Shown here one piece after another: positions 18,938-51,409 of a stretch of DNA of 64,000 nt. Position 1 is the stretch's first letter. Every line of letters begins with the position of its first letter. The position numbers and the translations under genes are program-made. The DNA is from Alcaligenaceae bacterium CGII-47 (GTDB taxonomy: Bacteria; Pseudomonadota; Gammaproteobacteria; Burkholderiales; Burkholderiaceae_B). The stretch is from positions 1 through 64,000 of the forward strand of contig JAHTBO010000002.1 of assembly GCA_019166125.1 (NCBI GenBank), in the 5' to 3' direction. The notes beneath the pieces are model-generated. The model saw nothing but the letters and a program-made list of their open reading frames with translations. It had not been told where the DNA came from and ran no database searches.

Positions 18938-19073
18938 TGACGGAACTGCTATCAACCATAAGCCTTCTGACACGCATTATCGATTTACCACTTCGTTTTA
19001 CTGTTTATTCGTAACGGCGCGACAACTCTGCCAGAGCAGACTCTAGCGCCATCACAATCAAGGGGAATATTTC

Positions 19074-20987: not shown

Positions 20988-20993
20988 GATTGC

Positions 20994-24551: not shown

Positions 24552-24571
24552 TCATTGTCCGGAGAATATCA

Positions 24572-31976: not shown

Positions 31977-33073
31977 GCGCACGATCTCCGATTGGTTTTT
32001 TTGAGCGCTACCTGTCCTTCTGGGTCGCACTATGCATCACGGCAGGCATCGGACTGGGCAGCGCTGTGCCGGGGCTGTTTCAAACTCTGGCTAGCTACGA
32101 ATACGGCTCGGTCAATTTCATTGTTGCCGTGCTGATCTGGTTTATGGTCTATCCAATGATGGTGTCGGTGGATTTTTCCAGCCTCAAACGCATTCATGAA
32201 CGCCCCAAAGGCCTGATCATCACACTGGTGGTGAACTGGCTGATCAAGCCCTTCACCATGGCTGGCCTTGGCGTGTTGTTTTTCAACTATTTTTTTATCG
32301 ACCTGATCGATCCGACCAACGCCAGCCAATACATCGCCGGCTTGATCCTGCTGGGTGCGGCGCCCTGTACCGCCATGGTGTTTGTCTGGTCGCAGCTGAC
32401 GCGGGGCGACGCCACCTATACCTTGGCTCAGGTGGCGCTCAATGATGTGATCATGATCTTTGCCTTTGCACCTTTGGTGGCCTTGCTGCTGGGGGTTACC
32501 GATATTCAGGTGCCGTGGGCGACCCTTATTCTCTCGGTCGGTTTGTACGTGCTGATCCCCTTGATTGCGGGGATTATCACCCGGACTCAACTGGGCCGTG
32601 GCGCTGACAACCCGACGCAAGCCGATCTCGCAGTGTCACGTTTCAACGCCCGCATAAAGCCTTTGTCGATACTCGGCCTGCTAGGCACTGTGGTGCTGCT
32701 GTTCGGTTTTCAAGGCCAAATCATTCTCGATGAGCCGCTGCTGATTGCGTTGATCGCTGTGCCATTGCTTATTCAGTCGTATGGTATTTTTGCGATAGCC
32801 TACGGTGTGGCCAAGCTGTGGAAAGTCCCGTTCAACGTGGCTGCGCCCTGCGCGCTGATTGGTACCTCGAACTTTTTCGAACTAGCTGTAGCCGTGGCCA
32901 TCGGTTTGTTTGGGCTCAATTCTGGTGCAGCGCTGGTTACTGTAGTCGGTGTATTAGTGGAAGTGCCCGTCATGCTATCCCTGGTCGCCTTCGCCAACCG
33001 TACTCAGGGTTGGTTTCCCCTCCGTTCAGAGCCCGCACCGCTTGCTCGTCGAGCAAGGCGTTTATACCGCTGA
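31973..33073 (+). CDS. acr3: Acr3-family arsenite exporter
   Basis: The 366-residue membrane protein has ten predicted helices and the Acr3 signature [20 protein letters not shown] with the conserved cysteine, plus [16 protein letters not shown] and [17 protein letters not shown]. It exports arsenite, or antimonite, through the inner membrane. The ATG overlaps the arsA stop by four bases, so the pair is translated together. The 3' end overlaps the convergent Crp/Fnr gene by 12 bases. Confidence 0.93.
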
Positions 33074-33823
33074 GTTCGGCGCATGCATGGATCGACCATC
33101 CCCGCACACAGCGGCTAAAAGATCAGGACGCAAAATACATACTTCCCTGCGGTCCACCGTGAGGATACCCTGGGCCACCATATGGCTGAATTCACGACTT
33201 ACTGTTTCCAGCGCTAGCCCGAGATAGTTGGCCAGATCACGACGAGACATCGGCAGCAACAAATTCAAGGGATCTCGAGACAATCGCTCGTGGCGACTGG
33301 CAAAGCTACGAAGAAACATGGCGAGCCGCACTAAGGCACGCAACTTACCCATTATGACCAAATGTTCCAAGGTCGCGTCTGCCCATCTACTGATTATCTG
33401 CATCATTTGCTGATGCAAGACAGGCAGTTGATCCAAAATTTGCAGAAGCTGTGCATGGGGAAGCGCCCAAACGTTAGAGCGCTCCAGCGCCTCAGCGCTA
33501 CCGAGAAAGGAATCCCTACCTAAACCGCCTATACCTACAATTTCGCCAGGCAGATGAAAGCCAAATACTTGCTCTCCGCCAACCGGATCCACCACGTAAG
33601 TCTTTAATGAGCCAGATCGTACAATGTATAGCGAGTGGGATGCATCGCCTTGGCGGAATATGGTCTCGCCGCGCTTTAATAGACGTTTATCGGCGATGAG
33701 GGGATCGAGTCGATCCAGGTCCGTGCTGCCGACGCCTGTGGGCAAATGAACCTGGCTTAGTGCAAACAGCTTATAGCTGCGCCGCAGCATATTGGCGTCG
33801 GCAATCGTGGTACTGGAATCCAC
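33062..33823 (-). CDS. Crp/Fnr-family transcription regulator
   Basis: The 253-residue regulator starts with GTG (33823) after GGAGA. It has a cyclic-nucleotide-type sensor domain ([29 protein letters not shown]) and a C-terminal helix-turn-helix, [20 protein letters not shown]. The Glu, Ser and Arg of ETVSR are the residues that read the TTGAT half-site in Fnr. No N-terminal cysteine cluster is present, so it does not look like an Fe-S oxygen sensor; a Dnr/FixK-like role is possible. It is the most likely factor, within this window, for the Fnr-type boxes seen near nosR, usp and the phasin gene (inference). Confidence 0.88.
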
Positions 33824-33890: not shown

Positions 33891-36215
33891 TCAGTAGTCG
33901 AGCCGTCTACTTATTGTATCGAAATTACGAAATAACTCTTCTTCTTGTGCGAAGTGCAGATCAAGGACGACATCCAGGCGCTGCAGCACGCCGTGAATCT
34001 CGCGCAAAGTGGGCGCTGCTGACGTGTTGCTGCTCGTCGCATCTGCGATCATGCGTTCTAGCAGCCTTAACAAGCGGAAAATCTCACGATGACCTTGGCT
34101 CAGGGCCGCTAGCGGGTCATCGCCCCCTAATTTGTCGGTCAGCTCGGGATAGAGCTGCGCCTCATCGCTACGTTCGTGCGGCAATAATTCTTGACGCAAC
34201 TGGGCGACCAGCGACGCCAGCTCGTCCAGCGCCGTATCTTCAGGAAGTGAATGCAGCCGGTTTGTCAGTTCATGCGTACGCGCAAGCAGCGGCACCAATG
34301 CGATGTGTTGGCGTTCTATTTCTGCTAGCGCTTCTACGCCAAGGGAGGGGGGTGCGCTGGCGCCGCGCCCCGCACTGACCGCACGCAAAGCATTAACAAT
34401 CACCACGACATCGATGACTTCCTGAAGAATCGCACCCGCGAGCGGTGGGAGCTGTCCTATCGCTGCCGCGAGCATGGCCAGCAGCGATAATCCCATGCCC
34501 ACGATGATGCTTTGCATAGCGATACGACGCGTACGGTGTGCGATACCCAGCGCTTCAGCCACCCGATCAAGGCGATCAGTCAACAACACCACGTCAGCCG
34601 TGTCACTAGCAACCGTCGCGCCGCGCGCACCCATCGCAATACCCACGTCGGCCACCGCCAGCGCCGGCGCATCGTTAACGCCATCCCCGACCATGATCGT
34701 CAGCGTTCGCGCAGGTATCCGCTGGATCAGTGCCAACTTATCTGAAGGATGAAGCTGCGCGTGTACTTCATCAGCACCTACCGCCGTACCGACGGCCTGG
34801 GCTGCTTCGAGACGATCGCCCGTCAACACCACGATGCGATGAATGCCCGCCTGGCGCAACTTGCGCACTGCGCGTGGCGCATCCTGGCGCAGTCGGTCCG
34901 CGAAACTCAGCGCGCCAGCGATGACGCCGTCGATCACGACAAAGCTTCCGGTGGCATCGTCATAGTCCATCTGACGCAGAAAGCCTTGGACCCAGACGGC
35001 AGGCGCCACATTGCGGGATGCGTAATCATGGCTGCCAAGTATTATCTGATGACCGTCAACCTCACCACGCAGCCCCGCCCCGGCCTCCTCGACAATATCC
35101 CTGGGCGGGCTCAGCACAAGGCCTCGCTCGCGCGCAATGCGTACGATGTTTTGTGACGCTACGTGTGTTGAGGCCTGCGCCAGGGACGCTGCGAGCCGAA
35201 GCAGCTCGCTCTCTTCCATGAGGCCGCCGGTTTCGACTGCCAGCAAGACCATTTTGCCCGTTGTCAGCGTTCCGGTCTTGTCGAAAAACAGGATACGTGC
35301 TTGGGCAAGTGCCTCGAGCGCTGCCCCGCCTTTCACCAGTACGCCGCGCCTGGCACATCGCGACAACCCGCCGACGATCGCGACCGGCGCCGCCAGAATT
35401 AGCGGACAAGGCGTCGCGACCACGAGCACGGCGAGCGCACGTACCGCATCGCCACTGAGTATCCAGGCGACTCCTGCGATACCCAAGGTCAGCGGTATAA
35501 ACAGCAAAGCAAAGCGATCCGCCATGCGCGTCAACGGTGCTTGCGAACGCTGCGCATCTTCGACCATGCGGACAATGCCCGAATAAGTGCTCTGTGCTGC
35601 GGGATGAGATGCACGCATCTCAAAGGGCGTACCGACGTTCGCACTGCCGCTACGGATACGAGAACCCGGCAGATGCTTTACTGGCAACGACTCGCCGGTC
35701 AGCGAGGATTCATCCAGAATTGCAACTGAGTCGAGCACATCGCCGTCCACCGGGATGAGTTCTCCGGAACGCACCAGCAGTCTATCCCCGATGGCGACTG
35801 TCTCGATCGGAATCTGCTCGAGCTGTCCGTCCTTGTGCCGCCATGCAAACACGGGCGCGCGCTCGACAAGTTTACTGATTTCACGTCTTGCCAGGCGTGC
35901 AGCGTAGGCTTCCAGCGCACGACCACCGGTCAACATCACCGCGATGATCGCGGCCACCAGTGACTCATCGAGCAACAGCGCGCCAATGATCGCCAGCAAG
36001 GCAATTAGGTCCACGCCTAGCTCGCGGCGCCAGATGCGTCTCAAACTCTCGACCAGTAATAAGATGGCGACGAGAAGCGCACTTGCCATCCAACTCCAGC
36101 GCGCCAGAACCAGGTAGCCGGTCCCGTACATAAGCAATCCACCAGTCAGTGCTAGCAGACAGATTACGAGAAGCACCGTATCGATGTAGGTCAAATCCAT
36201 TGGAACCTGCTTCAT
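33891..36215 (-). CDS. P1B-5-type metal ATPase with C-terminal hemerythrin domain
   Basis: The 774-residue pump has the TGES actuator loop (about 173-176), the membrane motif TPCPL (about 268-272) instead of the CPC of copper pumps, the DKTGTLT site (Asp about 312) and MVGDGVNDAPALAVA. It has no N-terminal metal-binding domain. Residues from about 640 form a hemerythrin-like domain with diiron ligands in EIERQH, LLPHERSDEAQLYP, LSQGHREI and LDLHFAQEEELF. TPCP plus this domain defines the P1B-5 group, in which one studied member (Nia) moves nickel and iron. A role in iron or nickel export under low oxygen is plausible. Start 36215 follows AGAGGCAGC. Confidence 0.85.
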   Translation of the reverse strand: MKQVPMDLTYIDTVLLVICLLALTGGLLMYGTGYLVLARWSWMASALLVAILLLVESLRRIWRRELGVDLIALLAIIGALLLDESLVAAIIAVMLTGGRALEAYAARLARREISKLVERAPVFAWRHKDGQLEQIPIETVAIGDRLLVRSGELIPVDGDVLDSVAILDESSLTGESLPVKHLPGSRIRSGSANVGTPFEMRASHPAAQSTYSGIVRMVEDAQRSQAPLTRMADRFALLFIPLTLGIAGVAWILSGDAVRALAVLVVATPCPLILAAPVAIVGGLSRCARRGVLVKGGAALEALAQARILFFDKTGTLTTGKMVLLAVETGGLMEESELLRLAASLAQASTHVASQNIVRIARERGLVLSPPRDIVEEAGAGLRGEVDGHQIILGSHDYASRNVAPAVWVQGFLRQMDYDDATGSFVVIDGVIAGALSFADRLRQDAPRAVRKLRQAGIHRIVVLTGDRLEAAQAVGTAVGADEVHAQLHPSDKLALIQRIPARTLTIMVGDGVNDAPALAVADVGIAMGARGATVASDTADVVLLTDRLDRVAEALGIAHRTRRIAMQSIIVGMGLSLLAMLAAAIGQLPPLAGAILQEVIDVVVIVNALRAVSAGRGASAPPSLGVEALAEIERQHIALVPLLARTHELTNRLHSLPEDTALDELASLVAQLRQELLPHERSDEAQLYPELTDKLGGDDPLAALSQGHREIFRLLRLLERMIADATSSNTSAAPTLREIHGVLQRLDVVLDLHFAQEEELFRNFDTISRRLDY

Positions 36216-36347: not shown

Positions 36348-38108
36348 CTAAGGGATCAGCACATATTGCCCTGGTGCGTCGTCAAGCACCGCATAACCGC
36401 CTGCTTTATTGCCCATTTCAGGTGGCGCAACACGCTCGCTTGCGTGGCTTTGCAGCCAGGCCTCGCAAGCCGGCCACCAGGAACCTTCATAGGACGGTGA
36501 TTTATCCTGCCAGGCTTCAGGCGCAACATATCGTGCTGGGGCCTTCTGCGTACCCAATTGATAACCGCGCTTGACGCCCGGCCCAGGAGGATTAACGACG
36601 CCTACATTGTGGCCACCAGTGCTTAGACAGAATGTCACCTCGGTTTCGGTCAGTAAATTAATCTTGTAAACCGATTTCCATGGCGATACGGTGTCGCGTT
36701 GCGTACCCAAGCAGAAAATAGGAAGCTTGATATCCATTAATGCAACAGGACGGCCCGTCACTTGATAATTGCCTTGGGCAAGATCATTGTCCAGGTATAA
36801 GCTGCGCAAATATTCGCTGTGTTGGCGAAAAGGCATGCGCGTGGCATCGGCATTCCACGCTGTCAAATCAGTGACGGCTTGGCGTTTGCCCATCAGGTAG
36901 TCGCGTACCCGGCGTGAAAATACCAGATCACGCGAATTGAGCAGTGCAAAGGCACCTGACATCTGCTTGCCATCGAGGTAGCCTTGCGCCGACATCGCAT
37001 CATCAAGATAGGCTAACTGGCTCTCGTCGATGAACAGTCCCAGCTCGCCGGGATCAGCAAAATCCACCAAAGAAGCCAGCAGTGTCAAGGACGTCATACG
37101 TTCGTCACCATCACGCGCCATCGCGGCTGCAGCAATCGCCAGTAATGTACCCCCCAGGCAGTAGCCAAAACCTTGGACGCGCTGCCCGGGAACAATGGTT
37201 GTCACCGCATCCAGTGCTGCCATGATCCCGTCCTTCAGGTAGGCATCCATGCCCATATCGCGATCCGCTTTGTCAGGATTACGCCAAGACACCATGAATA
37301 CCGTATGACCTTGACCTACCAGATAACGTACCAAGGAATTATCAGGAGATAAATCCAGAATGTAATACTTTAGAATCCACGAAGGCACAATCAAGATAGG
37401 TTCAGCAAATACGGTCTCGGTCTGAGGTGCGTACTGAATCAACTCGATGAGCCGATTGCGGAAAACCACCTTGCCCGGCGTGATGGCGACTTCATGGCCG
37501 GGTCTGAACTGTTCAACACCTGCCGGCGGCTGGCGAGCGGCCAGACGTTGTGCGTCTTCGATCCAATTGCGCATGCCCTGCCACAGGTTCATCCCGCCCG
37601 TCTTATAAGTCTCGGCCAGCACTTCAGGGTTGGTAATAAAGAAATTGGATGGTGAGACCATGTCGAGGGCCTGACGCGCGGCAAACGTCACGAGTTCCTC
37701 ATGATGACGCGTCACCCCACGGACATCTGTGGTGGCATTGTGCCACCACTGCTGGTTAAGTAGAAAAGATTGGTAGATTAAATTAAATGGCCAATGTTGC
37801 CATTCTGATGCAGAAAAACGCTTGTCCTGCGGGAGCGGTTCAATGCAAGGTTCGCCCGGGCAATTAGTGTGGCCCGCCGCGTGTTGCGTCAGACGCTGCG
37901 TTTTGTGTAAAGCCTTCTCGGTAAGTGCCAATTGTTTGCCTGGCGAGAAGGCTAGGTGCAAGGCCCAATCCACCCAGGCTTGCGTTAAAGCAGCCGGTGA
38001 GATGCCCTGCGTGAGTCGCGCCAATGTGCCATGCAGCATGCGATCAAGATCATACGACGGTGTATTTTCAAAGGGGGTTGAAGGCTGCGATTTAGACGTT
38101 GTTTTCAT
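36348..38108 (-). CDS. phaC: Class I poly(3-hydroxyalkanoate) synthase PhaC
   Basis: The 586-residue enzyme polymerises (R)-3-hydroxyacyl-CoA. It has the lipase-like box GFGYCLGG (nucleophile Cys about 317), a catalytic Asp in QRDTVSP (about 472) and His in TGGHNVG (about 500), along with conserved WNADATRMPFRQHSEYLR and the class I YILDLSPDNSLVRYLV stretch. Its ATG overlaps the stop of the upstream kinase gene by four bases, so the two genes are translated together. With PhaB and the phasin it makes a PHB storage system. Confidence 0.95.
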   Translation of the reverse strand: MKTTSKSQPSTPFENTPSYDLDRMLHGTLARLTQGISPAALTQAWVDWALHLAFSPGKQLALTEKALHKTQRLTQHAAGHTNCPGEPCIEPLPQDKRFSASEWQHWPFNLIYQSFLLNQQWWHNATTDVRGVTRHHEELVTFAARQALDMVSPSNFFITNPEVLAETYKTGGMNLWQGMRNWIEDAQRLAARQPPAGVEQFRPGHEVAITPGKVVFRNRLIELIQYAPQTETVFAEPILIVPSWILKYYILDLSPDNSLVRYLVGQGHTVFMVSWRNPDKADRDMGMDAYLKDGIMAALDAVTTIVPGQRVQGFGYCLGGTLLAIAAAAMARDGDERMTSLTLLASLVDFADPGELGLFIDESQLAYLDDAMSAQGYLDGKQMSGAFALLNSRDLVFSRRVRDYLMGKRQAVTDLTAWNADATRMPFRQHSEYLRSLYLDNDLAQGNYQVTGRPVALMDIKLPIFCLGTQRDTVSPWKSVYKINLLTETEVTFCLSTGGHNVGVVNPPGPGVKRGYQLGTQKAPARYVAPEAWQDKSPSYEGSWWPACEAWLQSHASERVAPPEMGNKAGGYAVLDDAPGQYVLIP

Positions 38109-39628
38109 AAGGCTTTCATTGCTCGGCTAACAGTTGTTGAGGGGGGGCCGCTTGCCTCGATTTTTATCCAATCGGGTACGGAGATATTGCGCGCAAGTTG
38201 GGCGCGTACGACAGCCACTGTTGCATCGGAAGGATCATCATGCCGCTCGTTGACGCGTGTAATCATCTGCTGGGGATCGGCATATAGCCAAAGTCCCGTA
38301 AAGGGCACGTCCGCACTCCGGGCGACATGCTCGATCCGGTCCTGTTCAGCTAGCCGGTCAAATACACCGTCCGCCACCACGGCATGCTTACAATGTAGAA
38401 CAGCCTGTGCATCCTGCGCCAGCGCTGCGTAGACTTGTTCTGATACCTCGGGTCGATAGGCCTGCTCCGTCAGACGCGTCTCTGCAACAACACCATGGAT
38501 GCGCTTACGAATTCGATCGCTCGCAAGCACGCGAGCCCCGGGCGCCGGGCCAATTGCGTGGGCGATGGCTGCGGCGACGGTCGACTTACCGGTACCACTC
38601 AGCCCCCCAATCGCCACGAGACGTGGGGTCACAGGCGCGAGCAATCGCAGGGCCAACGCCGCATAGTCCGTCGCCTCACGCGCGAGCTCACGGTGTCGCG
38701 AGCCGTCACACTCCATGGCCTGCTCTGCCGCGATATGGGCGCGTATCGTCGCGCGTATCGTCATGAAGAAAGGCAAAAGCACTAAGCCTTGTGTCTCGTC
38801 ACATTCATCCATGTAGCGGTTGAAAACAAGATTGGCGCTCGGTTCGAGACCTCGATACCACAGATCCATTAATAAAAACGCCAGATCGTACAGGACATCA
38901 ATGGTGGCAACCTCATCATCGAACTCAATACAGTCGAACAGGGTCGGAACACCCTCGATCAAACAGATGTTGCGCAGGTGCAGATCGCCATGACAGCGCC
39001 GTACCTTACCGGCCATCCCCCGCTCATTTAAAAGCGTAGCGCAAGAATCAAAAGCTCTCCATAAACCCGTGGTCAGTGCAGCAACCGTGTCCGCTGCCAG
39101 CAAGCCACTGGCTGCGAGCGACACCTCGTTCATGGTAAGAACGGCGGCGATATTGGCTGCGCCGCTACGGTGATGATCGATAACGGCATCCGCGTGAAAA
39201 TGCGCAATCGTACGCGCTAGCTCTGTCATCAAGGTGGGCGTCAGCTGGCCACCTACAGCGAGTCTATCGAATAGCGTATCCTCATCAAAGCGCACCATCT
39301 CGACCACAGCATCAAGCAGCTCTCCAGGGCCATCAAACATGAGTTCGCCATCGGCCTCGCACGTGATACGCCGTACGGCAAGGTAGAGCATCGGAGCAGT
39401 CCGCCGATTCAGCTCAAGTTCCCGATAGCAGGCCGCCAAGCGGTGTTCTGGCGTAGAAAAGTCAACATAAGGCAAGCGCACAGCGCGCTTTAGCTTAAAG
39501 ACCCTAGTGCCAACAAAAATAATGACAGATATATGTGTCTGGGTCGTGCTGATATGCAGCGGTTGATCCCCATAACTTGCTGGATCCGTTAAAAATGCGA
39601 GGATAGTGCTCTGATCCTGAACAATCAT
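38105..39628 (-). CDS. APH-like domain fused to a P-loop kinase domain
   Basis: The 507-residue protein has an N-terminal aminoglycoside-phosphotransferase-like kinase (FKLKRAVRLPYVDFSTPEHR, CHGDLHLRNI with the catalytic Asp, and DCIEFDDEVATIDVLYDLAF) and a C-terminal AAA/P-loop domain (IGGLSGTGKSTVAAAIA and ASDRIRKRIHGV) like the AAA_33 nucleotide kinases. Similar fused proteins are common in betaproteobacteria and are usually unnamed. The target molecule is unknown. It overlaps phaC, so a link to PHA metabolism or phosphorylated intermediates is conceivable but unproved. Confidence 0.8.
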   Translation of the reverse strand: MIVQDQSTILAFLTDPASYGDQPLHISTTQTHISVIIFVGTRVFKLKRAVRLPYVDFSTPEHRLAACYRELELNRRTAPMLYLAVRRITCEADGELMFDGPGELLDAVVEMVRFDEDTLFDRLAVGGQLTPTLMTELARTIAHFHADAVIDHHRSGAANIAAVLTMNEVSLAASGLLAADTVAALTTGLWRAFDSCATLLNERGMAGKVRRCHGDLHLRNICLIEGVPTLFDCIEFDDEVATIDVLYDLAFLLMDLWYRGLEPSANLVFNRYMDECDETQGLVLLPFFMTIRATIRAHIAAEQAMECDGSRHRELAREATDYAALALRLLAPVTPRLVAIGGLSGTGKSTVAAAIAHAIGPAPGARVLASDRIRKRIHGVVAETRLTEQAYRPEVSEQVYAALAQDAQAVLHCKHAVVADGVFDRLAEQDRIEHVARSADVPFTGLWLYADPQQMITRVNERHDDPSDATVAVVRAQLARNISVPDWIKIEASGPPSTTVSRAMKAL

Positions 39629-39964
39629 ACCTGCTTGGCCAAACTCAGAAATAATCGGGTCATCACGAATTATTTTCCTGGGTTACTCGAATAAAAGGGT
39701 ATTGCAAAATGTGCAGAATCATTACTAATCGATATCCGAATTGTATCTTCTGTTCGAGTAAATCATACTCACTAGCTTATCGTCCGTGAGTATGTCGTAA
39801 AATAAATGATCCAGACATCCATTATTATAGTATCCCATTGAGATTATTGAGTATTGATTGAAATCAAACCTATTGCTTTGGTCGCGTACTATGATGAGTA
39901 AGTAGAAATAATTTTGTGTGGATCGGTATCTACACACCTCAGTTTCACGATCAAGGAGAACTCA
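39629..39964. other. Intergenic region between the kinase and phasin genes
   Basis: No gene is supported in this AT-rich stretch of 336 bases. It contains the promoters of the divergent kinase-phaC operon and phasin gene. On the plus side it holds a perfect Fnr box and a good -10 element; nothing else is recognised. Confidence 0.6.
39854..39895 (+). promoter_or_regulatory. Fnr box and -10 element of the phasin gene
   Basis: TTGAT-TGAA-ATCAA at 39854-39867 is a perfect Fnr consensus. TATGAT at 39890-39895 is a good -10 hexamer. The implied start near 39902 puts the box centre at about -41.5, the class II position used for direct activation. It suggests phasin expression at low oxygen. Confidence 0.8.
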
Positions 39965-40345
39965 ATGTCCACAGCGAACGCGGCAAAAGGCAAAGCTGCC
40001 AATATCAGTACGCTGCTCACGGCAAATGCTGCAGACACACAAGCAAACGCCACCCGTTTGTTCAGCCAAACCAACGAGTTAATGATCACCATGGCTCGCG
40101 CCCTTTGGGACAGTCAGACCAAACTACTCCAAACCGAGATTGAACAGGCAGTAAAGACATTTTCACCGCCTGCTACGGGTGGTGACCCGAGCGAGATATA
40201 CGCGGCATATTGCCAGCAGTGGCACGAAAGCTCCGAGCGTCGGATCACCCACATGCGTCAGGTCAATGATTTGATACGCGACTACAATTGGCAGGTTTTC
40301 GAGACTTATGCCGATAGCCTAGGCCAGTCAAGCAAGCCAAAGTAG
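39965..40345 (+). CDS. Phasin-family PHA granule protein
   Basis: The 126-residue protein is Ala- and Gln-rich, mostly helical, and without transmembrane segments, as in phasins that coat PHB granules. Segments NATRLFSQTNELMITMARAL and QQWHESSERRITHMRQVNDL are typical of phasin 2 proteins. The ATG at 39965 follows AAGGAGA. A perfect Fnr box lies upstream. The adjacent genes, phaC and the patatin fusion, support the PHA assignment. Confidence 0.75.
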   Translation: MSTANAAKGKAANISTLLTANAADTQANATRLFSQTNELMITMARALWDSQTKLLQTEIEQAVKTFSPPATGGDPSEIYAAYCQQWHESSERRITHMRQVNDLIRDYNWQVFETYADSLGQSSKPK

Positions 40346-40389: not shown

Positions 40390-42732
40390 TTGCACAGAGA
40401 GTCAATTCTGAATAATAAGCACACAGTTATCCAACCCTCGCCACCAGAGCAGGCTGATTTCCTGCTTGTCGGCGGAGGCATCTCAGCAGTTACCGCCGCG
40501 CAGACGCTACGCAATGAAGGCGCGCAGGGATCGATTCTCCTGCTTTGTGCTGAGACCGAATACCCCTATGAACGACCGCCCCTAACCAAGGGGTTTATGA
40601 CCGATGAGGTTCCCTCAAAGCAGTTACTGCTGATGGGGCCTGAAGACTATAAAAGCGACAATATCGACATCCGCTTGGGTTGCAGCGTGAGCTCGATTGA
40701 CCCCGCCACGCATAGCCTGGTCGACCAGGCAGGGCGAACCTATCACTATGGGAAACTACTACTCGCAACCGGCGCACAGCCGTGCCAATTAGCGGTACCC
40801 GGCGTTGATCTGGATGGCGTTTTCTCGTTTCGCTCGCTTATTGATGCGATGGCCGTACGCAGTTGGGTCGGAACGCATCCGGGTCCAGTAGGGATTATCG
40901 GCACAAGCTTCATTGCAATGGAGCTCGCTACCTCCTTCACCCGAATGGGGATAAAGGTCACGTTGATCGATCGGGCGGAAACTGTCTTTCCCAGAATACA
41001 TTCCGAGACGCTCTCAAGCTATTTTATCGATCAGTGTCAGAAGCATGGGATTGACGTCCTCTTGGGTCAGACCATTCGTAAAATCCGCGGCACCCGAAAG
41101 GTCACCGGCCTCGAGACCGCGTCGGGTAAAAAAGTCACCTGTAGCACCGTAATTATGGCAATCGGCACCCTGGCGCAGACCAATTTTCTCGAGCAATCAG
41201 GGCTGCACATCGAGGACGGAATCCTCGTTGACGAATTTTTACAGACGAACCACCCGGATATTTTTGCCTCAGGCGATGTGGCCAGCTACCTGGATCGTCA
41301 TGGAGATCGCCAAAGAGCGAGGCATTGGGAAAACGCGCGAAAACAGGGGCAACTTGCCGCAAAGAACATGCTCGGTCAGCAAGTCCCTTATAGCAGCGTG
41401 CTGCATTACTACTGCGACTTTCTGGATTTCAGTTTTACGTTTCTTGGAACCAGCGATCGAGCCGATAGGCAGATCCAGAGGGGTAGTTTGAAGGATAAAT
41501 CTTATGCGGAATTTTATATTCGTGATGATCGCATTATCGGCTTCTTCTCCACGGGCCGCCCTCCCGAAGAGACTCGGGTCGTAGAAACACTGATTCGAGA
41601 TCGCACCGATATCCAAACAGCAGGCGAGCAACTTGCCAACCCTGACGCCGACATACAGGATTTGGCGCGACAGACTATCCTGATCCTGCAAGGCGGCGGC
41701 GCGCTGGGTGCTTTTGAGTGCGGTGTCGTTCGCGCGATGGAGGAAGCCGGGATTGCGCCCATGGTTATAGGCGGCGTCTCGATTGGCGCTATTAACGGGG
41801 CGATCATCGCGGGCAACCCAGACAATGCGGCTTCGGCGGTTGAAGCTTTTTGGGATGAGATCGGTGTACATGGATCCGAACTCGCGCACGGCTCGATCAA
41901 TCGCGCGCTGGCGGTTGGAACCACAATGATGTGGGGTATCCCAGAGTTTTTCAGACCGCGCTGGCTAGCACCCGGTGTGCATGGCGAATGGTGGCCTTCT
42001 CAATGGACGAGCATCTATGACATTAATCCCCTCAGGAATTTACTGTGCAAATACATAGATTTTTCGACACTCTCCCAGAGTCCGGTGAGGCTCATCGTGT
42101 CCGCTGTCGATGTAGATCGTGGCGAACTTGTGTTCTTTGACAGCCGTATCGATAAGTTGACACCAGACCATATCCTGGCCAGTTGCAGCCTTCCTCCCAT
42201 GTTTCAGTGGACGACTATCGACGGGCGACACTACTGGGATGGCGGCATCATCAGCAATTCGCCCCTCGAACATGTGCTCAATCAGTGCGGCGCCGACAAT
42301 AAACAAGTCTTTATTGTCGATTTGTTTCCAGGGGAAAGACCCTTGCCGTCCAATCTCGCAGAGGTGCTCTCCCGGCGGGATGAAATTATTTATGGCGAGC
42401 GAATCCGTAATGACGGACATATTCGCGAACTGGCCCATGACTTTAAGGCACTTGTCGACGAGATCATGACTGCAGTCGAACCTGATGTCGCCGCCCGTCT
42501 TCGGCAAAGACCTCGCTATGTGCACTTGATGGGTCGGGGGGCAACGACTTCGATTACTCATATCGTTCGTGATGGCTCAGCCAAAGAGCCCCTGGCGGCA
42601 CACTACGACTTCTCTATGCAGTCGATCAATCGGCACCGAAAAGAAGGCTATATGATCGCCCAAAAGCTTCTCGCCTCATTGGAGCACACGCCAGTCCCGG
42701 ATGCCAACGGGCCAGCAGGGGCAACGCAATGA
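40390..42732 (+). CDS. FAD-dependent oxidoreductase fused to a patatin-like phospholipase
   Basis: The 780-residue protein joins two domains. Residues about 20-420 form a ferredoxin-reductase-like oxidoreductase: FLLVGGGISAVTAAQTL (FAD), YERPPLTKGFMTDEVPS, VGIIGTSFIAMELATSFTRM (NADH) and FASGDVASY. Residues from about 430 form a patatin domain: LQGGGALGAFECGVVRAMEE as the oxyanion motif, GGVSIGAINGAIIAG with the nucleophile Ser (about 463), and HYWDGGIISN with the catalytic Asp. The catalytic residues of both are present. The start appears to be TTG at 40390; no better start was found. It lies 45 bases after the phasin gene and overlaps the next gene by four bases. The substrate is unknown; a lipid or PHB-related hydrolase coupled to redox is possible. 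Confidence 0.8.
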   Translation: MHRESILNNKHTVIQPSPPEQADFLLVGGGISAVTAAQTLRNEGAQGSILLLCAETEYPYERPPLTKGFMTDEVPSKQLLLMGPEDYKSDNIDIRLGCSVSSIDPATHSLVDQAGRTYHYGKLLLATGAQPCQLAVPGVDLDGVFSFRSLIDAMAVRSWVGTHPGPVGIIGTSFIAMELATSFTRMGIKVTLIDRAETVFPRIHSETLSSYFIDQCQKHGIDVLLGQTIRKIRGTRKVTGLETASGKKVTCSTVIMAIGTLAQTNFLEQSGLHIEDGILVDEFLQTNHPDIFASGDVASYLDRHGDRQRARHWENARKQGQLAAKNMLGQQVPYSSVLHYYCDFLDFSFTFLGTSDRADRQIQRGSLKDKSYAEFYIRDDRIIGFFSTGRPPEETRVVETLIRDRTDIQTAGEQLANPDADIQDLARQTILILQGGGALGAFECGVVRAMEEAGIAPMVIGGVSIGAINGAIIAGNPDNAASAVEAFWDEIGVHGSELAHGSINRALAVGTTMMWGIPEFFRPRWLAPGVHGEWWPSQWTSIYDINPLRNLLCKYIDFSTLSQSPVRLIVSAVDVDRGELVFFDSRIDKLTPDHILASCSLPPMFQWTTIDGRHYWDGGIISNSPLEHVLNQCGADNKQVFIVDLFPGERPLPSNLAEVLSRRDEIIYGERIRNDGHIRELAHDFKALVDEIMTAVEPDVAARLRQRPRYVHLMGRGATTSITHIVRDGSAKEPLAAHYDFSMQSINRHRKEGYMIAQKLLASLEHTPVPDANGPAGATQ

Positions 42733-44276
42733 GCACTGAATTAAAGTCAATCCCTCGGTTCAAAGCAAATATTTGGCTGATGCTTTTAAGCCTTGCATTC
42801 GGCTTATATCCAGCGCTCTCGTTGGCACAGAGCACATTGCAATGGTTCAACCAGGACAGACCCTCAGCCCAGGCTATTGAGGCAATAGCATTGCTGAGCG
42901 CTGCCGATACGGACGGCTTGGTACCTAGCGACTATAACGTCGCATTTTTGCGCGGCGCGTTTGAATCCGCATTGCAGGGCCCCCCCCTGCCCTCGCCCGA
43001 CATCGCTCGGTTGGACGTGGCATTGACGGCTTCGATGGAGCGCTATTTACACGATTTGCGTCAGGGCAGGCTTGATCCACTGATGATTCACCAGCGTTTT
43101 AAAGCGCCCCCATTCGAATATTTTGATACCGCCGCCTATCTATCCGCTGCGCTCATGGCAAATCGTTTGCCTGAGGCTGTTCGTCTGGCTGCCCCCCAAA
43201 TACCCCTCTACGCTCGCCTGCGCGACGCGCTGGCGCAGTACCGCGAGTTACCCGACTGGCAAGCATGGGAGCACCCCCTTCCTGCTTTACCTGGAAACAA
43301 GATCGAAGCAGGCCAGACCTATCCGGGCATTCCCATGCTCGCGCGGCGCTTGATTGCCCTGGGCGATATGTCCGCTGATACGGTCGTTCCTGAATACTAC
43401 GAAGGTGCCCTGGTCGAAGGTGTTCGTTCATTTCAAGAACGCCATGGCCTGCTGGTGGACGGTGTTTTAGGTAAAACCACGCTCCGAGAGCTCGAAATAA
43501 AACCTGCTCGGCGTGTGCGCCAAATCGAATTGACGCTCGAGCGCCTGCGCTGGACACCCTTACTGCAGGCGCCACGAATGATTGTGGTCAATATCCCGGA
43601 ATTTGTACTAAGAGCCTATGAGGTAAAGAACGGACAGTTCGATGTCCAGGTACAAATGAAAATTATTGTTGGGCGCGCGCTGAACACGCGCACGCCCGTG
43701 TTTGACGAGGATATGCGCTTTATAGAATTCAGTCCGTACTGGAACGTGCCCCGATCTATTGTCAGGTCAGAGACCATACCTCGATTGCGCCGTGACCCTG
43801 CGTATTTTAAACAACAGGGGTTCGAGTTCGTGACCGGTGATGGCACCCCACTGAATACACTATCGGCAGACAATATCGATGCCTTAGAGCGCGGCGAGTT
43901 GCGTATCCGTCAGCGGCCAGGGCCCCGTAATGCACTAGGCGATATAAAGTTCATCTTTCCCAATAATCAAAACATCTATCTGCACCACACGCCGACACCC
44001 GAATTATTCAATCGGGACAGGCGTGATTTCAGTCATGGATGCATCCGGGTTGAAGACCCGATAGCCTTGGCAAAATTCGTCCTCTATGATGAACCGGACT
44101 GGCCAGAGACCCGCATCCGTGATGCCATGTCTCGTGCCGCATCCAGGACCATCAGCCTGCACCAGCCCGTGCGAGTATTAATTACATACAGCACGGTAAT
44201 CGTAAAAAATGATAAGGTTTACTTCTTTCCTGATCTATATAGTCAGGATGCGCTATTAGATAAGGCATTACAATGA
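42729..44276 (+). CDS. L,D-transpeptidase, YcbB/LdtD type
   Basis: The 515-residue exported protein has an N-terminal signal/anchor (LLSLAFGLYPALSLAQS), a scaffold region, a peptidoglycan-binding segment (EGVRSFQERHGLLVDGVLGKTTL) and the YkuD catalytic domain with FSHGCIRVEDPIALA (Cys about 438). These enzymes make 3-3 cross-links in peptidoglycan. It overlaps the patatin fusion upstream and the DUF882 gene downstream by four bases each. Confidence 0.9.
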   Translation: MSTELKSIPRFKANIWLMLLSLAFGLYPALSLAQSTLQWFNQDRPSAQAIEAIALLSAADTDGLVPSDYNVAFLRGAFESALQGPPLPSPDIARLDVALTASMERYLHDLRQGRLDPLMIHQRFKAPPFEYFDTAAYLSAALMANRLPEAVRLAAPQIPLYARLRDALAQYRELPDWQAWEHPLPALPGNKIEAGQTYPGIPMLARRLIALGDMSADTVVPEYYEGALVEGVRSFQERHGLLVDGVLGKTTLRELEIKPARRVRQIELTLERLRWTPLLQAPRMIVVNIPEFVLRAYEVKNGQFDVQVQMKIIVGRALNTRTPVFDEDMRFIEFSPYWNVPRSIVRSETIPRLRRDPAYFKQQGFEFVTGDGTPLNTLSADNIDALERGELRIRQRPGPRNALGDIKFIFPNNQNIYLHHTPTPELFNRDRRDFSHGCIRVEDPIALAKFVLYDEPDWPETRIRDAMSRAASRTISLHQPVRVLITYSTVIVKNDKVYFFPDLYSQDALLDKALQ

Positions 44277-44836
44277 CAAAACCACTCGAGCCGGCTCGCC
44301 GCCAGTTCCTTCGATACTCTGCCGGTATCGCCATGGTCGGAACTGGCATGTCACTAAGCTCACAGGCATTTGCTGGCAGTTCACAAGCCTATCGGCTAGC
44401 TTTCGACCATACCCATACACACGAAAAACTCTCTCTGATCTACTCAGTCGCGGGCGAGTACCAAGCCACGGCGCTTGATCGCCTTAATCACTTTTTACGT
44501 GATCACTACACAGGCACGGTAGGCACCATGGATCCGCAGTTGTTTGATATTCTGCACCGGATAACATCGGCATTAGAGACAAAACGATCGTTTCAGGTCA
44601 TTTCCGGATACCGTTGTGCGGCGACCAACGACAGGTTGCGCACGACCCGTGGCGGGGGCGTAGCCAAGCGCAGCTTACATATGGATGGGCGGGCGATCGA
44701 TATTCGTATCCCAGGGGTTCCGCTTACAGAGCTGCATCATGCCGCGCTGTCGCTTAAGGCCGGTGGTGTGGGTTTTTATCCTCGTGACCAGTTTGTGCAT
44801 ATCGACACGGGCAAGGTGCGTAGCTGGGGCACCTAG
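44273..44836 (+). CDS. DUF882/YcbK-type (MepK-like) peptidoglycan endopeptidase
   Basis: The 187-residue protein has a TAT signal (ARRQFLRYSAGIAMVGTGMS), then the M15A-like fold with VISGYRCAATNDRLR, SLHMDGRAIDIRIPG and FVHIDTGKVRSWG, which give the zinc ligands His, Asp and His. MepK cleaves cross-links made by L,D-transpeptidases, so the upstream Ldt is a fitting partner. The ATG overlaps the ldt stop. Confidence 0.88.
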   Translation: MTKPLEPARRQFLRYSAGIAMVGTGMSLSSQAFAGSSQAYRLAFDHTHTHEKLSLIYSVAGEYQATALDRLNHFLRDHYTGTVGTMDPQLFDILHRITSALETKRSFQVISGYRCAATNDRLRTTRGGGVAKRSLHMDGRAIDIRIPGVPLTELHHAALSLKAGGVGFYPRDQFVHIDTGKVRSWGT

Positions 44837-44852
44837 TGTCCTGAATAACCCC

Positions 44853-45746
44853 TCAAGACACATCGCGATCGACATGCTGGGGCTTTAGCGCCTCAAACCC
44901 GGCGATCACATCCAGCAGCTCTTCTGTGATCGCTGATTGCCGTGTTGTGTGCGTAGCCAGGGCCAACTCAGTGAGCCGCTCATCGATGCTTCGTTCAGCT
45001 TGTTGCATCCGTGCCAGGCGTGCTGCGTTTTCAGTTACCAGTGCCTCTGCGCTGGCACCAAACAGGCTCGCAAACAGATCGTTGCGCAATAGCGCTGCAA
45101 AAACAGCAACGCGCGTCATGTCGAAGTGCGGAAGGCTGTGCGAGGTCCACGGACGTTGTGATAGGCGCTCGAGCCGCTCAGCTGCAAGCGGGATCACTTG
45201 GCGCACAACCACGGCCTGTCGACCGTGCTCCGCCCGCTCGGTAAAAGCAAGTGTCACAGTGATATCCCGTTTTTTATCGGTATGCACCGCATCGATTCGG
45301 GCGATCAGCTCACCAACCAGACGGCTCACACCTTCAACGCTGGCCGGGGTCATGAGTGTCGCCTCTACATCCAGCCCAACCCCTCGAATCGCGTCCTCCA
45401 TCTGAGCCCCGACACAGAAAATAAGGTGGTCCTCCCCTATCCACGGAGCCTGAACCAATTCCATCGCAACCGCTTCGTTATAGCTACCACATAGCCCCTG
45501 ATCCGAACCAAAGACCACAATAAGTCGCAATACGTTGATCCCTACAGTTTGGTCAGGGATGCCATACATTTTTATAAAGGCCTGGAGGCCATCCAACACC
45601 GTATCGTGCCAATCATTGATGGCTCGCGCCGCTTGCTCGTAGGGGTACGCGTTAATCGCCGATAAGGTTTTCATCGTATGGACGATGTTACGGATGGTCT
45701 GTGTCGTACCGGTGCGACGCGTGAGGCTTTCAAGTGTCTGAGACAT
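44853..45746 (-). CDS. atpG: N-type ATPase gamma subunit
   Basis: The 297-residue subunit is the rotor stalk: the N terminus runs [20 protein letters not shown], followed by [14 protein letters not shown], and the C terminus ends [19 protein letters not shown], the two helices that form the coiled coil. It is divergent from ordinary AtpG (longer GSDQGLCG region retained). It is the last gene of the atpDCQRBEFAG operon and overlaps atpA by 17 bases. Confidence 0.9.
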
Positions 45747-47256
45747 TGTCCGTCAGCGCATTTTGTGCGATATCCAGAAGGATGTGGCGGTCGGCTTGTG
45801 TGAGCGCCAAATTATGTTTGATGTGCACGGCGATCTCGTCCATCTGTGCTTGGGCACAGACTTGGATGATGCGCGCCATACTCCCGACCACCTCCGTTTC
45901 CGACAAGGCATCAAAAACCCCCTCCGTCGCAGCGATGAGTATGGTCATCTGAGCAAGGATCCCCAGTGGCTGGCGCTCGGGTTGGCGCAGCGAGGCGCGT
46001 ACGGCTGCCCCCCGAGCCAGACGCGCCTTTGTCTGCTTATCCAGCCGTGCGCCAAAGCGCGCAAAATCCTCCAGCTCTTCAAATTGCGATAAGGTCACGC
46101 GCAAATTGCCAGCGATATCGCGAAAGGCCCGCAATTGCGCCTTACCGCCGACGCGCGATACCGATACACCCAGATCAACAGCCGGAAATTGATTTCGACG
46201 TGCGAGGCGCGGCGACAGGTAGATCTGCCCGTCAGTGATGGAAATCAAGTTGGTGGGTAAATAGGCTGATAAATTTTCCGCCTGAGTTTCAACAATAGGC
46301 AACACCGTGATCGAACCCGAGCCGGCATGCTCGGCGAATTGTCCCGCTCGCTCAAGCAGGCGGGCATGGACGTAGAAAATGTCACCTGGAAAGGCCTCGC
46401 GACCTGGCGGACGCCGCAGCAATAGCGATAATTCGCGATATGAACGGGCGTGATGCGTCATGTCGTCCAGCACCAGAAGCACGTCGTGGCCTTGGTCTGA
46501 AAAGCTCTCTGCAATGGACATCGCTGCATAGGGGGCGACAAACGAGAGCCCGGGTGGATTCTCGTCACCCGCCGTGACAACGATGGTGCGCTCTGCCATT
46601 CCCCCTGCTCTTAGGGCGCCAACAACCTTGGCCACCGCATCACCGCGTTGGCCGATTGCACAATAGATGCAGACAACATCCGTGTCCTTCTGATTGAGAA
46701 CCGTATCGATTGCAATGGAGGTTTTACCGGTCTGCCGATCGCCTACGATCAACTGACGCTGCCCAAGACCGATAGGCACCGCTGCATCCACCACCTTCAG
46801 GCCCGTTGCCAGCGACCGTGTAACGGGTGCTCGATCCAGAATCGGTGGCGCTTCAGTCTCGATAGGGCGCTGCGCAGCAATCACTGGCCCACCACCGTCC
46901 AGAGGACGCCCAATTGCATCAATAACCCGGCCCAAAAGTGCCTCACCCACTGGAACACTGAGAACCTTACGGGTGCGGCGTACATCCTCGCCCATACGCA
47001 CGAGCTCGGGTGGTCCGAGAAGCGCGACGCCCAGACGCCCAGGCTCAAGGTCGAGCACCAGACCACGCACACCACTGGCAAACTCCAGCATCTCATCCGA
47101 CACAGCGCGTACGAGCCCCGAAACAATGGCAATGCCCGCACCCACCTGGGCGACACGACCAATCTCTTCGATTCGTAGTCCTGGAGTCGGGGTACGGACC
47201 AATGCGTCAATCATTACCGCCGGATCAAGGCCCTGATCATAGGCTTCAGTGGGCAT
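45730..47256 (-). CDS. atpA: N-type ATPase alpha subunit
   Basis: The 508-residue F1 alpha subunit has the P-loop [20 protein letters not shown], then [19 protein letters not shown] and the alpha signature [20 protein letters not shown]. It belongs to the alternate N-ATPase; a separate housekeeping F-ATPase is expected elsewhere. It overlaps atpF by 11 bases and atpG by 17. Confidence 0.93.
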
Positions 47257-48016
47257 CGACTAAACCCTTTGCACGGTTGGTACTCGAGACTTGGTGCTCG
47301 AGCATTGCCGCTAGTTCGTCGACATAGCTGTCCACAGTCCAACTGACCTGCGTTCCCCCTACCCGCAGGATCAACCCGGGCGCCTGGGTAGGAACCGCGA
47401 CAAACTGCAAGGTGAGCTTGGGCAAACGAGCGCCTATTTGGTGTTTTAGTTCTGCCCGTACAGCGTCAGAAAGAACATCCCGCGTGGTAACAACGGCCTC
47501 ACTGGCATGGGCAGCGGCCTCAAGGAGCTCGCGCCCGGAGGCATCTATTTGTTTGCCTGCCTGAATGACTATCTGTTCCTCGAAAGTCTGATCCGCCAGA
47601 TCTACAAGTGCTTTGCGCGTCAGCGCAAGCAGCGCCTCAGCGCCTGATTTCTGTAACATCGCAGCATAGCGTTTCGCCTCGGCCTGCTGCTCACGGACGA
47701 AGGTCAGGCGCTCGATCTGAAGCTGTTCGCGCGCCTCGGTGATGATTTTTTGGTGGGTGGCTTGCGCCTGACTATCAATAGCTTTTAGCGCATCGGATTG
47801 ATCCGACTCGAGTTTGGCAAGCCTGCCTGCGTACTCGAGCTGCTTGGCGTCCGCTTCGTCGCGAACACGTCTTGCCTCGTCCATTCGCTGGGCGATCTCG
47901 GCCTCGCGCGCATCAATACCGTCAAGGATCGGTCGGTATAGAAACCGCTTAAGCAGCCAGACCAATATCAAAAAATTGGCGACCTGGGCAGCAATCGTGA
48001 TCCAATCAACTGTCAT
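47246..48016 (-). CDS. atpF: N-type ATPase b subunit with delta-like extension
   Basis: The 256-residue subunit has one N-terminal membrane helix ([20 protein letters not shown]), a long coiled coil ([20 protein letters not shown]) and a C-terminal domain absent from the usual b of about 156 residues. In N-ATPases AtpF is long and no separate delta gene exists, so this extension probably takes the delta role of binding F1. Confidence 0.9.
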
Positions 48017-48021
48017 TGACC

Positions 48022-48309
48022 TCAGCCCCCAGCGACTCGTGCGGCTTCGAGCGCAGCATTCCAGAACGGGTTGGCAAAAATAAGAATCATCGCCACGACA
48101 AAGCAGTAAATTGCTGTCGATTCGATCATCGCCAGACTGACGAATAGGGTTCGGGACAGCGCTGCTGCCGCGTCAGGCTGTTGAGCAATCGCTGCCAGTG
48201 CACTGGCGGCTGCTCGGCCTTCACCAAGAGCAGGACCAATCGCGCCAAAAGCGACAGTCAGTCCTGCAGTAAAAATCGACACAGCGGCGATAAAGGCGAG
48301 ATCGGTCAT
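48022..48309 (-). CDS. atpE: N-type ATPase c subunit, two acidic helices
   Basis: The 95-residue proteolipid has two helices. The first carries GEGRAAASAL with Glu about 30, and the second carries MIESTAIYCF with Glu about 63 followed by Ser and Thr. The GEG/EST pair is the double-carboxylate site of N-ATPases. The EST motif resembles Na+-binding c subunits, but the Gln of known Na+ rings is replaced by Glu here, so the ion (Na+ or H+) cannot be decided from sequence. It overlaps atpB by four bases. Confidence 0.92.
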   Translation of the reverse strand: MTDLAFIAAVSIFTAGLTVAFGAIGPALGEGRAAASALAAIAQQPDAAAALSRTLFVSLAMIESTAIYCFVVAMILIFANPFWNAALEAARVAGG

Positions 48310-49004
48310 GAGGTTTCCTTTTCTTTGCTTGGTTTATGGGGGGAATCGGCCATGGCGGATGATATATAAACGGTTGCGAGGATCGCGAATATATAGGCCT
48401 GGATCACCCCGACCAGCAGGCCCAGCATCTCCATGAGCACCGGAAAGAAAAATGGAGCAACCCCCAGCAGGATAGCGGCGATAACCGCCCCGCTCATGAT
48501 GTTGCCGTACAAGCGGATAGCCAATGACAGACTGCGCGTCATCTCGCTGAGAATATTAAAAGGCAGCATTATCCATGAGGGCTCAGTGTAAGTCCTTAAG
48601 TAGCTGCCAAACCCACGGCTAGCAATACCAAAGATCGGCACCGCCACCAGTACCGACAAAGCGAGCGCCGCGGTGGTCGAGAGCGACCCCGTGGGGGCAT
48701 GAAAGCCTGGCACGACCGAAAGCACATTCGAGGTGACAATGAACAGGAATAGTGTCCCCGAAAAATAAAGGACTTGGCGGGCGGGCCTCCCTGCTATTTC
48801 CGTATTTTGGCGCTCAATCCCCTGGACGATTACCTCCAGGGCGGTACGCCAGCGGTTCGGCGGAACATCTGCACGTAAATGGCGCGTGATCAACCATGCT
48901 GCGCCCGCCAGAATTGCCATCACGATCCATGTGAAATAAATTGTTGCATTGATCGGGATTCCTCCCAATTCAAAGACAACAATCGTATCTGGGGTCAGTT
49001 CCAT
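48306..49004 (-). CDS. atpB: N-type ATPase a subunit
   Basis: The 232-residue membrane subunit starts at 49004 (MELTPDTIVVFELGGIPINA). It has about five helices and the essential Arg in MTRSLSLAIRLYGNIMSGAV, next to the ion channel. The start overlaps the atpR stop by 10 bases. A longer upstream frame to 49253 lies within atpR and is rejected. Confidence 0.92.
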   Translation of the reverse strand: MELTPDTIVVFELGGIPINATIYFTWIVMAILAGAAWLITRHLRADVPPNRWRTALEVIVQGIERQNTEIAGRPARQVLYFSGTLFLFIVTSNVLSVVPGFHAPTGSLSTTAALALSVLVAVPIFGIASRGFGSYLRTYTEPSWIMLPFNILSEMTRSLSLAIRLYGNIMSGAVIAAILLGVAPFFFPVLMEMLGLLVGVIQAYIFAILATVYISSAMADSPHKPSKEKETS

Positions 49005-49300
49005 GATGTGCTCTGTGCCAGCGTACTGCCGCGAAGCCAGGCCAGCAATACGGTACGCAAGACAATAAAGGCCACAGCAAAACCCAAAGCGCCAGCAACT
49101 CCTAGCCAGGTCGCAACCGCCCAACCCCCAGCCAGAACCGCTGCGATGCGTAGCGCCGCGCTCGAGAACAGAACCGCGGCAGGATTCGCGCGGCGCAGCG
49201 CGATCTTCATTCCCCAAGCCAATCCCGCAAAAAACAACATGGAAAATAGACAACCGGCAAGCAATCCGACAAAAAAACCCATCCAGCTAAAGCTCATCAT
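48995..49300 (-). CDS. atpR: N-ATPase-specific membrane protein AtpR
   Basis: The protein of about 101 residues has three predicted helices (MGFFVGLLAGCLFSMLFFAG, AALRIAAVLAGGWAVATWLG, GFAVAFIVLRTVLLAW). AtpR is found only in N-ATPase operons. The start uses an ATG overlapping the atpQ stop, after an excellent AAGGAGGCG site. Confidence 0.88.
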   Translation of the reverse strand: MMSFSWMGFFVGLLAGCLFSMLFFAGLAWGMKIALRRANPAAVLFSSAALRIAAVLAGGWAVATWLGVAGALGFAVAFIVLRTVLLAWLRGSTLAQSTSWN

Positions 49301-49580
49301 TAATCGCCTCCTTCCTTTTCGACCCACCGCCAGGCAATCAGTGCGCCCACCAATACGCCTGCCACGATCAGCGAGATCGTCCACGAGAACGTTTGTGGAA
49401 ACGCCCGATCGAGCCACTGACCCAGAAACGTCCCACCAACGGTAGGGACTGCGACCGACCATCCAATCATCCCAAATGTACCGATTCCATGCAATGGGCT
49501 GGGGCCTGGATTATCACGTGCCGCCTGCATCCGCCTCGCATGACGTTCAATTTCATCGCTTACCCGATCATGCGGTTCAA

Positions 49581-49584
<4 letters not shown>
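49300..49584 (-). CDS. atpQ: N-ATPase-specific membrane protein AtpQ (AtpI-like)
   Basis: The 94-residue protein has an N-terminal cytoplasmic part and two helices: GWSVAVPTVGGTFLGQWLDR and WTISLIVAGVLVGALIAWRW. It resembles AtpI and occurs in N-ATPase operons. Its ATG overlaps the atpC stop by four bases. Confidence 0.87.

Positions 49585-51409
<1,825 letters not shown>

Follow-up and report, generated by a model that had tools for sequence, protein, structure and literature searches.

Introduction

Poly(3-hydroxybutyrate) (PHB) serves bacteria both for carbon storage and as an electron sink. The way in which its breakdown is matched to the redox state is poorly understood. Here we analyze a gene at 40390-42732 (+) in a stretch of 64,000 nucleotides (nt) from the Alcaligenaceae bacterium CGII-47, the whole of which is called the window hereafter, whose product joins a flavoprotein reductase and a patatin-type hydrolase in one chain of 780 amino acids. 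This fusion recurs in scattered bacteria, often beside PHB genes, and may couple PHB breakdown to the redox state; a PHB-cycle hydrolase with its own flavin module would make such redox matching directly testable on one purified protein.

The component parts of the fusion are already known. On the reductase side, the NADH-ferredoxin reductases of the HcaD, putidaredoxin reductase and BphA4 types share the Pyr_redox_2 and Reductase_C domains with it over about 400 residues, whereas the fusion differs from these oxygenase-coupled enzymes in the attached hydrolase, the lost tryptophan of the FWSDQ motif and the relaxed glycines of the NAD motif. On the hydrolase side, stand-alone proteins of rhizobia, Burkholderia and others, annotated as "patatin-like phospholipase family protein", have the same two C-terminal domains, namely Patatin and DUF3734, and those found on plasmids are 34-38% identical to the patatin half of the window protein, but they have no reductase domain and form a separate clade (21 rows, support 100/100). 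The Legionella bdhA-patD genes are reportedly a further precedent, on which our literature search gave no paper.

Among systems studied in the laboratory, PhaZh1 of Haloferax mediterranei is presented, in the portions of the reports available to us, as a patatin-like polyhydroxyalkanoate (PHA) depolymerase encoded beside bdhA, which is granule-associated, is active on PHB(V) and frees 3-hydroxybutyrate in vitro (PMC11205408, PMC4823750); its knockout is described as leaving the mobilisation of PHA in the cell without significant change (PMC4823750). By family name and description only, it is comparable to the fusion as a predicted intracellular patatin-type hydrolase, but the portions of these descriptions at hand do not mention a flavin domain, which the fusion has (PMC11205408, PMC4823750). 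As to gene context, the window fusion has a phasin neighbour and not a 3-hydroxybutyrate dehydrogenase (BDH), but a PHB-cycle gene adjoins the fusion at 12 of 27 loci and BDH at 7 of them. The genistein-induced BjG30 locus of Bradyrhizobium, described with an efflux pump, TetR, acetoacetate decarboxylase and BDH, resembles in gene content the clusters of two fusion plasmids (L059 and L061), although neither a patatin nor an oxidoreductase is named in the portion of the text available (PMC4070704), a comparison that covers the named genes of the locus. In the open-access literature searched, which most subscription papers lie outside, we found no description of the combination or of its PHB context among the papers listed; the term DUF3734 occurs in no paper of that collection, and its two papers combining patatin, ferredoxin reductase and fusion deal with unrelated subjects by title.

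The fusion protein and its relatives

Counted from a TTG, the open frame at 40390-42732 has 780 codons, and from stop to stop it has 789. No clear ribosome-binding site accompanies this TTG and the homology of the relatives starts at about residue 20; the annotated start is uncertain and may be wrong. Four Pfam domains lie in the single open frame, which bears out the initial annotation of an oxidoreductase and a patatin in one 780-residue chain: the FAD/NAD(P)H oxidoreductase domain Pyr_redox_2 (40459-41349; residues 24-320; 190.8 bits, E 4.7e-56), Reductase_C (41425-41664; residues 346-425; 28.6 bits, cut-off 25), Patatin (PF01734; 41680-42273; residues 431-628; 103.2 bits, cut-off 27.7, E 2.7e-29) and DUF3734 (42385-42687; residues 666-766; 50.4 bits, cut-off 22), all four above their cut-offs and on the + strand, as are the patatin catalytic residues Ser464 (41779-41781) and Asp617 (42238-42240). 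The nearest solved chain to the reductase half is 3lxd (E 1.1e-55), the other near structures being ferredoxin or rubredoxin reductases, while by sequence and up to E 0.1 the patatin half matched only PlpD (5fqu, E 4.7e-10). Among the best 25 of 50 NCBIfam families none reached its cut-off, HcaD coming first with 250.7 bits against 450. An AlphaFold2 model of the fusion, made from a two-row alignment, had a mean pLDDT of 33.3 and was unusable for fold search.

In the same family, 16 of 268 genomes including the host itself gave a match at E <=1e-100, in a single frame in 14 and split in two (G074 and G081). Beyond the family, others were found in 2 of 399 genomes of the order, 4 of 369 of the class and 1 of 398 of the phylum, the last being one of the order matches; the genome samples overlap and two to three candidates were scored per genome, so that these counts are lower bounds. 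Besides, five of 72,556 plasmid records, from Tardibacter, Xanthobacter, Sphingopyxis, Variovorax and Cupriavidus, carry the fusion over at least 80% of its length. The working set consists of 27 loci, window included, of which 25 have a single frame of more than 700 residues (L051 is counted here, though as called it lacks the FAD end) and two are split. The breaks fall inside the patatin domain in G074 and inside Reductase_C in G081, neither at the domain border, and therefore look like later damage or sequencing error. For G257 and G556 the genome search flagged one in-frame stop each, the listed frames being open across the homologous stretch.

In the tree of the reductase halves, the 25 fused rows and the long-branched stand-alone reductase L036, the position of which among them is unresolved, are separated from the nine other stand-alone rows with support 100/99. 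The tree of the patatin halves likewise sets the 25 fused rows apart from 21 stand-alone patatins (100/100, or 83/81 with fewer stand-alone rows); for want of a match at 1e-5, the stand-alone patatins L003 and L004 are absent from both sets, and L001 is in the smaller set only, not in the 21-row tree. The pairwise identities of the two halves, averaging 45% and 53%, are correlated with r = 0.91 over 300 non-independent pairs. With separate clades and correlated divergence, the two halves have travelled together, as one old fusion. Copies in two genomes of the host's genus (G117 and G118) are only 43-44% identical to the window fusion, which, together with the patchy spread and the plasmid copies, suggests horizontal transfer of the fusion.

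Gene context of the fusion

Directly upstream of the fusion, as initially annotated, the window carries a phasin gene (39965-40345, +; 126 amino acids from ATG; PF09361 Phasin_2, 26.1 bits, cut-off 24.9), for which the ATG at 39965 was adopted as start within a listed frame of 39914-40345 and whose stop is 44 nt from the fusion start. The gene of the class I-like PHA synthase PhaC (36348-38108, -; PhaC_N 1.4e-57; TIGR01838 522.5 bits, below the cut-off of 622.65) is divergent from the fusion and 2.3 kb upstream.

When the surroundings of the relatives were checked for phasin and PHA genes, as proposed along with the initial annotation, a PHB-cycle gene was found directly adjoining the fusion at 12 of the 27 loci, window included, and at 15 it was not. 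To identify the neighbours, annotation was combined with Pfam scans of 40 selected genes and with tblastn searches for 11 reference proteins; some of the Pfam-scanned neighbour frames are probably spurious, so remote PHB genes may be missed. The 12 loci show four arrangements. First, a phasin gene adjoins the fusion in the window, L039 and L041, the latter two phasins being 48.8% identical to that of the window and the one of L039 falling short of the Phasin_2 cut-off (17 against 24.9 bits). Second, on the sphingomonad plasmids of L059 and L061, acetoacetate decarboxylase is upstream and BDH downstream, with a phasin 1-3 kb off. Third, BDH is upstream in L052, L064, L065, L066 and L067, accompanied by the decarboxylase in four of these five. 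Fourth, a divergent PhaZ gene is found in L054 and L063.

Two further observations concern these surroundings. The phasin/decarboxylase-fusion-BDH clusters of the L059 and L061 plasmids stand beside chlorocatechol/anthranilate dioxygenase genes. In two genomes of genus g5, flavodoxin/FMN-reductase-like genes are next to the fusion (L050, 11486-11992; L051, 8240-8752), and their products are possible electron partners.

The co-occurrence of PhaC and phasin with the fusion at the genome level was dropped as evidence, since it is uninformative when PhaC is present in 31 of 32 genomes without the fusion.

A comparable context was found around the stand-alone patatins, of which 14 out of 35 listed on plasmids were taken, varied by genus and with 4 kb flanks. 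Both Patatin and DUF3734 are present in all 12 that were scanned. Within the fetched stretches, BDH was matched at 11 of the 14 loci (at about 3 kb from the patatin in L068) and acetoacetate decarboxylase at 9, with neither in L072, L074 and L078. These neighbours are common to the fusion and to the stand-alone patatins, so that the fusion takes the slot which a plain DUF3734 patatin has in many organisms. For DUF3734 patatins, a role as hydrolases in the 3-hydroxybutyrate pathway is thus more probable than one as phospholipases.

Conserved and lost residues

The marks of the patatin family, namely a glycine-rich oxyanion loop, the GxSxG serine, the DG[GA] aspartate and the C-terminal DUF3734, are all present, and the oxyanion glycines GGG435-437, S464 and D617 are invariant in 25 of 25 fused proteins. 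The initial annotation had regarded both active sites as complete, which holds for the patatin site; the NAD motif of the window protein is degenerate. Instead of GxGxxG, its two dinucleotide motifs read GGGISA (FAD, with alanine for the third glycine) and GTSFIA (NAD). In the FAD motif of the fused set the first two glycines are kept in 24 of 24 covering rows, while S or A replaces the third in 19 of 24, but the latter is not strict in stand-alone reductases either (G in 5 of 9 rows). At the second glycine of the NAD motif, 17 of 25 fused proteins have S, whereas all 10 stand-alone reductase rows have G.

In putidaredoxin reductase the FWSDQ tryptophan faces the iron-sulphur partner, being a contact to ferredoxin. 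It is W in all 10 stand-alone reductase rows (two of them identical) and in none of the 25 fused proteins, which have F, Y or A instead; in the window protein the position is Tyr341, just before Reductase_C. Because this tryptophan is missing, ferredoxin reduction by the flavin module seems unlikely. Another tryptophan, W313, is invariant in the fused set and occurs in 4 of 10 stand-alone rows. An acidic residue after beta-2, which is typical of NADH use, is found in 19 of 25 fused proteins.

An FNR-type box upstream of the phasin gene

A perfect box of the FNR/ANR type, TTGATTGAAATCAA, is located at 39854-39867 (strand not assigned), 97 nt before the phasin start codon. There are two perfect boxes in the window against 0.08 expected from shuffles, and 11 distinct ones in the 3.45-Mb genome; the second box of the window, at 23200-23213, lies within a predicted reading frame of the nitrous-oxide reductase (nos) cluster. 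A perfect box also precedes the phasin start in both nearest relatives, by 94 nt in L039 and 97 nt in L041, and since it keeps this place although their phasin is turned the other way relative to the window arrangement, the box is assigned by comparison to the phasin of the nearest clade and not to the fusion. If phasin and fusion share one transcript, the window box would also drive the fusion. In the promoter scan, no sigma-70-like site was found at the region of the phasin box. We rejected the idea that the fusion family is generally under FNR control, as a perfect box within 3.5 kb upstream is present at 3 of 27 loci and a one-mismatch box at two more.

Eight Crp-family loci of the host genome are over the cut-off, six of them readable, and one of the six (L089) has the FNR-type cysteine cluster C-x2-C-x5-C together with an ETVSR recognition helix, while the window's own Crp-family gene at 33062-33823 has ETVSR and lacks the cluster. 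In Herbaspirillum, according to the portion of the report at hand, a phasin gene is under direct activation by Fnr paralogues, which also have phaC1 as a target (PMC5934665). In the window's host, FNR probably turns on the phasin-fusion unit when oxygen is low.

Proposed function and alternatives

We propose that the fusion acts in the PHB cycle as an intracellular hydrolase and carries a flavin module of its own, a reading to which we give about an even chance. Its C-terminal patatin-DUF3734 part, with Ser464 and Asp617, would cut the 3-hydroxybutyrate ester bonds of PHB or its oligomers inside the cell, at phasin-coated granules, and the released 3-hydroxybutyrate would go to a dehydrogenase, which is the next-door gene in some relatives, often with acetoacetate decarboxylase. 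The N-terminal part would be a former ferredoxin-reductase-type flavoprotein which no longer carries the FWSDQ tryptophan motif and most likely senses or consumes NAD(P)H, whereby polymer breakdown would be tied to the redox state, and in this lineage phasin and fusion would be expressed together at low oxygen. The host has a classical PhaZ and, elsewhere in the genome, a BDH-like protein of 40% identity; therefore the fusion would be an additional route. We infer the substrate, the cytoplasmic location and the direction of the redox control, as well as the shared transcript, from sequence and gene context. That the patatin part is a PHB-cycle hydrolase is predicted with some confidence, and redox coupling of the hydrolysis only tentatively. 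For the redox-controlled PHB turnover suggested with the initial annotation, this means that the link to PHB is reasonable, with a PHB-cycle neighbour at 12 of 27 loci, and that the redox control is a tentative prediction.

Several observations weigh against the proposed function. The loci without an adjacent PHB gene (L008, L040, the ten from L042 to L051, L053, L060 and L062) include all six of genus g5; two of them, L008 and L049, sit on contigs of 3.5 and 4.3 kb, and in L062 a PhaC gene is 7 kb away. PhaC is found in 20 of 22 genomes with the fusion, compared with 31 of 32 others, phasin being present in 22 of 22 of the former, which makes this co-occurrence uninformative. The complete genome G848, whose locus L067 has the order decarboxylase-BDH-fusion, gave no PhaC_N match, and may use another synthase type or imported 3-hydroxybutyrate. 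In the window neither BDH nor acetoacetate decarboxylase is beside the fusion, and the canonical PhaZ is already encoded by the host genome. As for the stand-alone patatins, identity to the reference is as low as 39-42% for five of the 11 BDH matches, four of these five being annotated as 3-hydroxybutyrate dehydrogenase, and seven stand-alone patatins from genomes of the family had no BDH match within flanks of only 1.5 kb. Finally, the degenerate NAD motif of the window protein weakens a reading driven by NADH, and counts to some degree against both uses of NADH that may be considered, namely gating of the hydrolase and reoxidation of the cofactor.

These two uses are more plausible than ferredoxin reduction. 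In the gating form of our proposal, the FAD oxidation state or bound NAD(P)H would directly switch the patatin active site on phasin-coated granules, a prediction that we regard as unlikely in this specific form. If it is true, PHB would be drawn on only when the reductant pool requires, on top of gene control by FNR, and the redox state would control PHB mobilisation directly and allosterically within one polypeptide.

An alternative that is possible but doubtful is in-line disposal of NAD(P)H, with both halves active and no gating: the patatin would free 3-hydroxybutyrate, the dehydrogenase would make NADH, and the flavin domain would reoxidise NAD(P)H, the acceptor being oxygen, a quinone or a soluble carrier. 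It is consistent with the BDH genes adjoining the fusion at 7 of 27 loci, the acidic residue after beta-2, the invariant W313 (less telling for its presence in 4 of 10 stand-alone rows) and the flavodoxin/FMN-reductase-like genes of L050 and L051, but the NAD glycines are relaxed in the fused clade, 17 of 25 proteins having S for the second one, and no recurring acceptor gene was seen beside the loci, where a crude and too unspecific regular-expression scan for iron-sulphur carriers gave scattered hits only.

That the protein is instead a membrane-lipid hydrolase, as also suggested with the initial annotation, is less favoured by gene context and seems improbable to us. In this case the patatin would be a phospholipase, the flavin part would repair or sense oxidised lipid, and the PHB neighbours would be incidental. 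Patatin is indeed a phospholipase fold, PlpD is the sole solved match of this half, a phospholipase A is annotated in the L061 cluster and 15 of 27 loci are without an adjacent PHB gene; against it stand the four PHB-gene arrangements beside the fusion, and the BDH or decarboxylase genes beside most of the 14 plasmid stand-alone DUF3734 patatins.

Still less probable is that the protein is a genuine reductase of ferredoxin or rubredoxin, with a hydrolase attached by chance, which serves an oxygenase or another electron consumer encoded elsewhere. Oxygenase-type ferredoxin reductases do come first among its matches in both NCBIfam and the PDB, Reductase_C is over its cut-off and a dioxygenase cluster lies downstream of the fusion on two plasmids (L059 and L061), yet both these clusters have their own reductase and ferredoxin, the FWSDQ tryptophan is replaced in 25 of 25 fused proteins and no NCBIfam cut-off was reached among the best 25 of 50 families. 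An artefact of assembly or sequencing that joined two genes which are separate in all relatives, a concern raised with the initial annotation, has a negligible probability and was rejected, for in spite of the split G074 and G081 and the stops flagged in G257 and G556, 24 other loci carry the fusion in a single frame and the two breaks are inside domains.

Neighbouring genes in the window

Downstream, the fusion stop is overlapped by the ATG of an L,D-transpeptidase gene (YkuD; 42729-44276, +), which in turn overlaps at 44273 the gene of a MepK-like peptidoglycan endopeptidase (M15; 44273-44836, +; NF053624 194.4 bits, cut-off 185). The coupling to cell-wall genes that was initially annotated is thus true of the window, but at the other 26 fusion loci tblastn (E 1e-4, 40% of length) matched neither of the two proteins, and a conserved coupling of the fusion to peptidoglycan genes was rejected.

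On the other side, the gene at 38105-39628 (-) overlaps that of PhaC by 4 nt and encodes a protein that combines an APH-type kinase domain with a P-loop kinase (AAA_33); matches of about 30% identity to it occur near the fusion in L054 and L062. Also beside the PHB genes is a P-type ATPase of 774 residues (E1-E2_ATPase and HAD hydrolase; 33891-36215, -) with a C-terminal hemerythrin domain, a pairing that looks unusual. A short-chain dehydrogenase/reductase at 28404-29165 is only 30% identical to BDH by tblastn.

The PHB region is flanked by the nos cluster (16646-25585) and by an alternate-type F1F0 ATPase operon (44853-51409), whose gamma subunit comes closest to the alternate-type family TIGR03323 (215.1 bits, below the cut-off of 282.35); together they suggest a low-oxygen gene island. 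The F1F0 ATPase operon adjoins the fusion in L039 and L041 as well.

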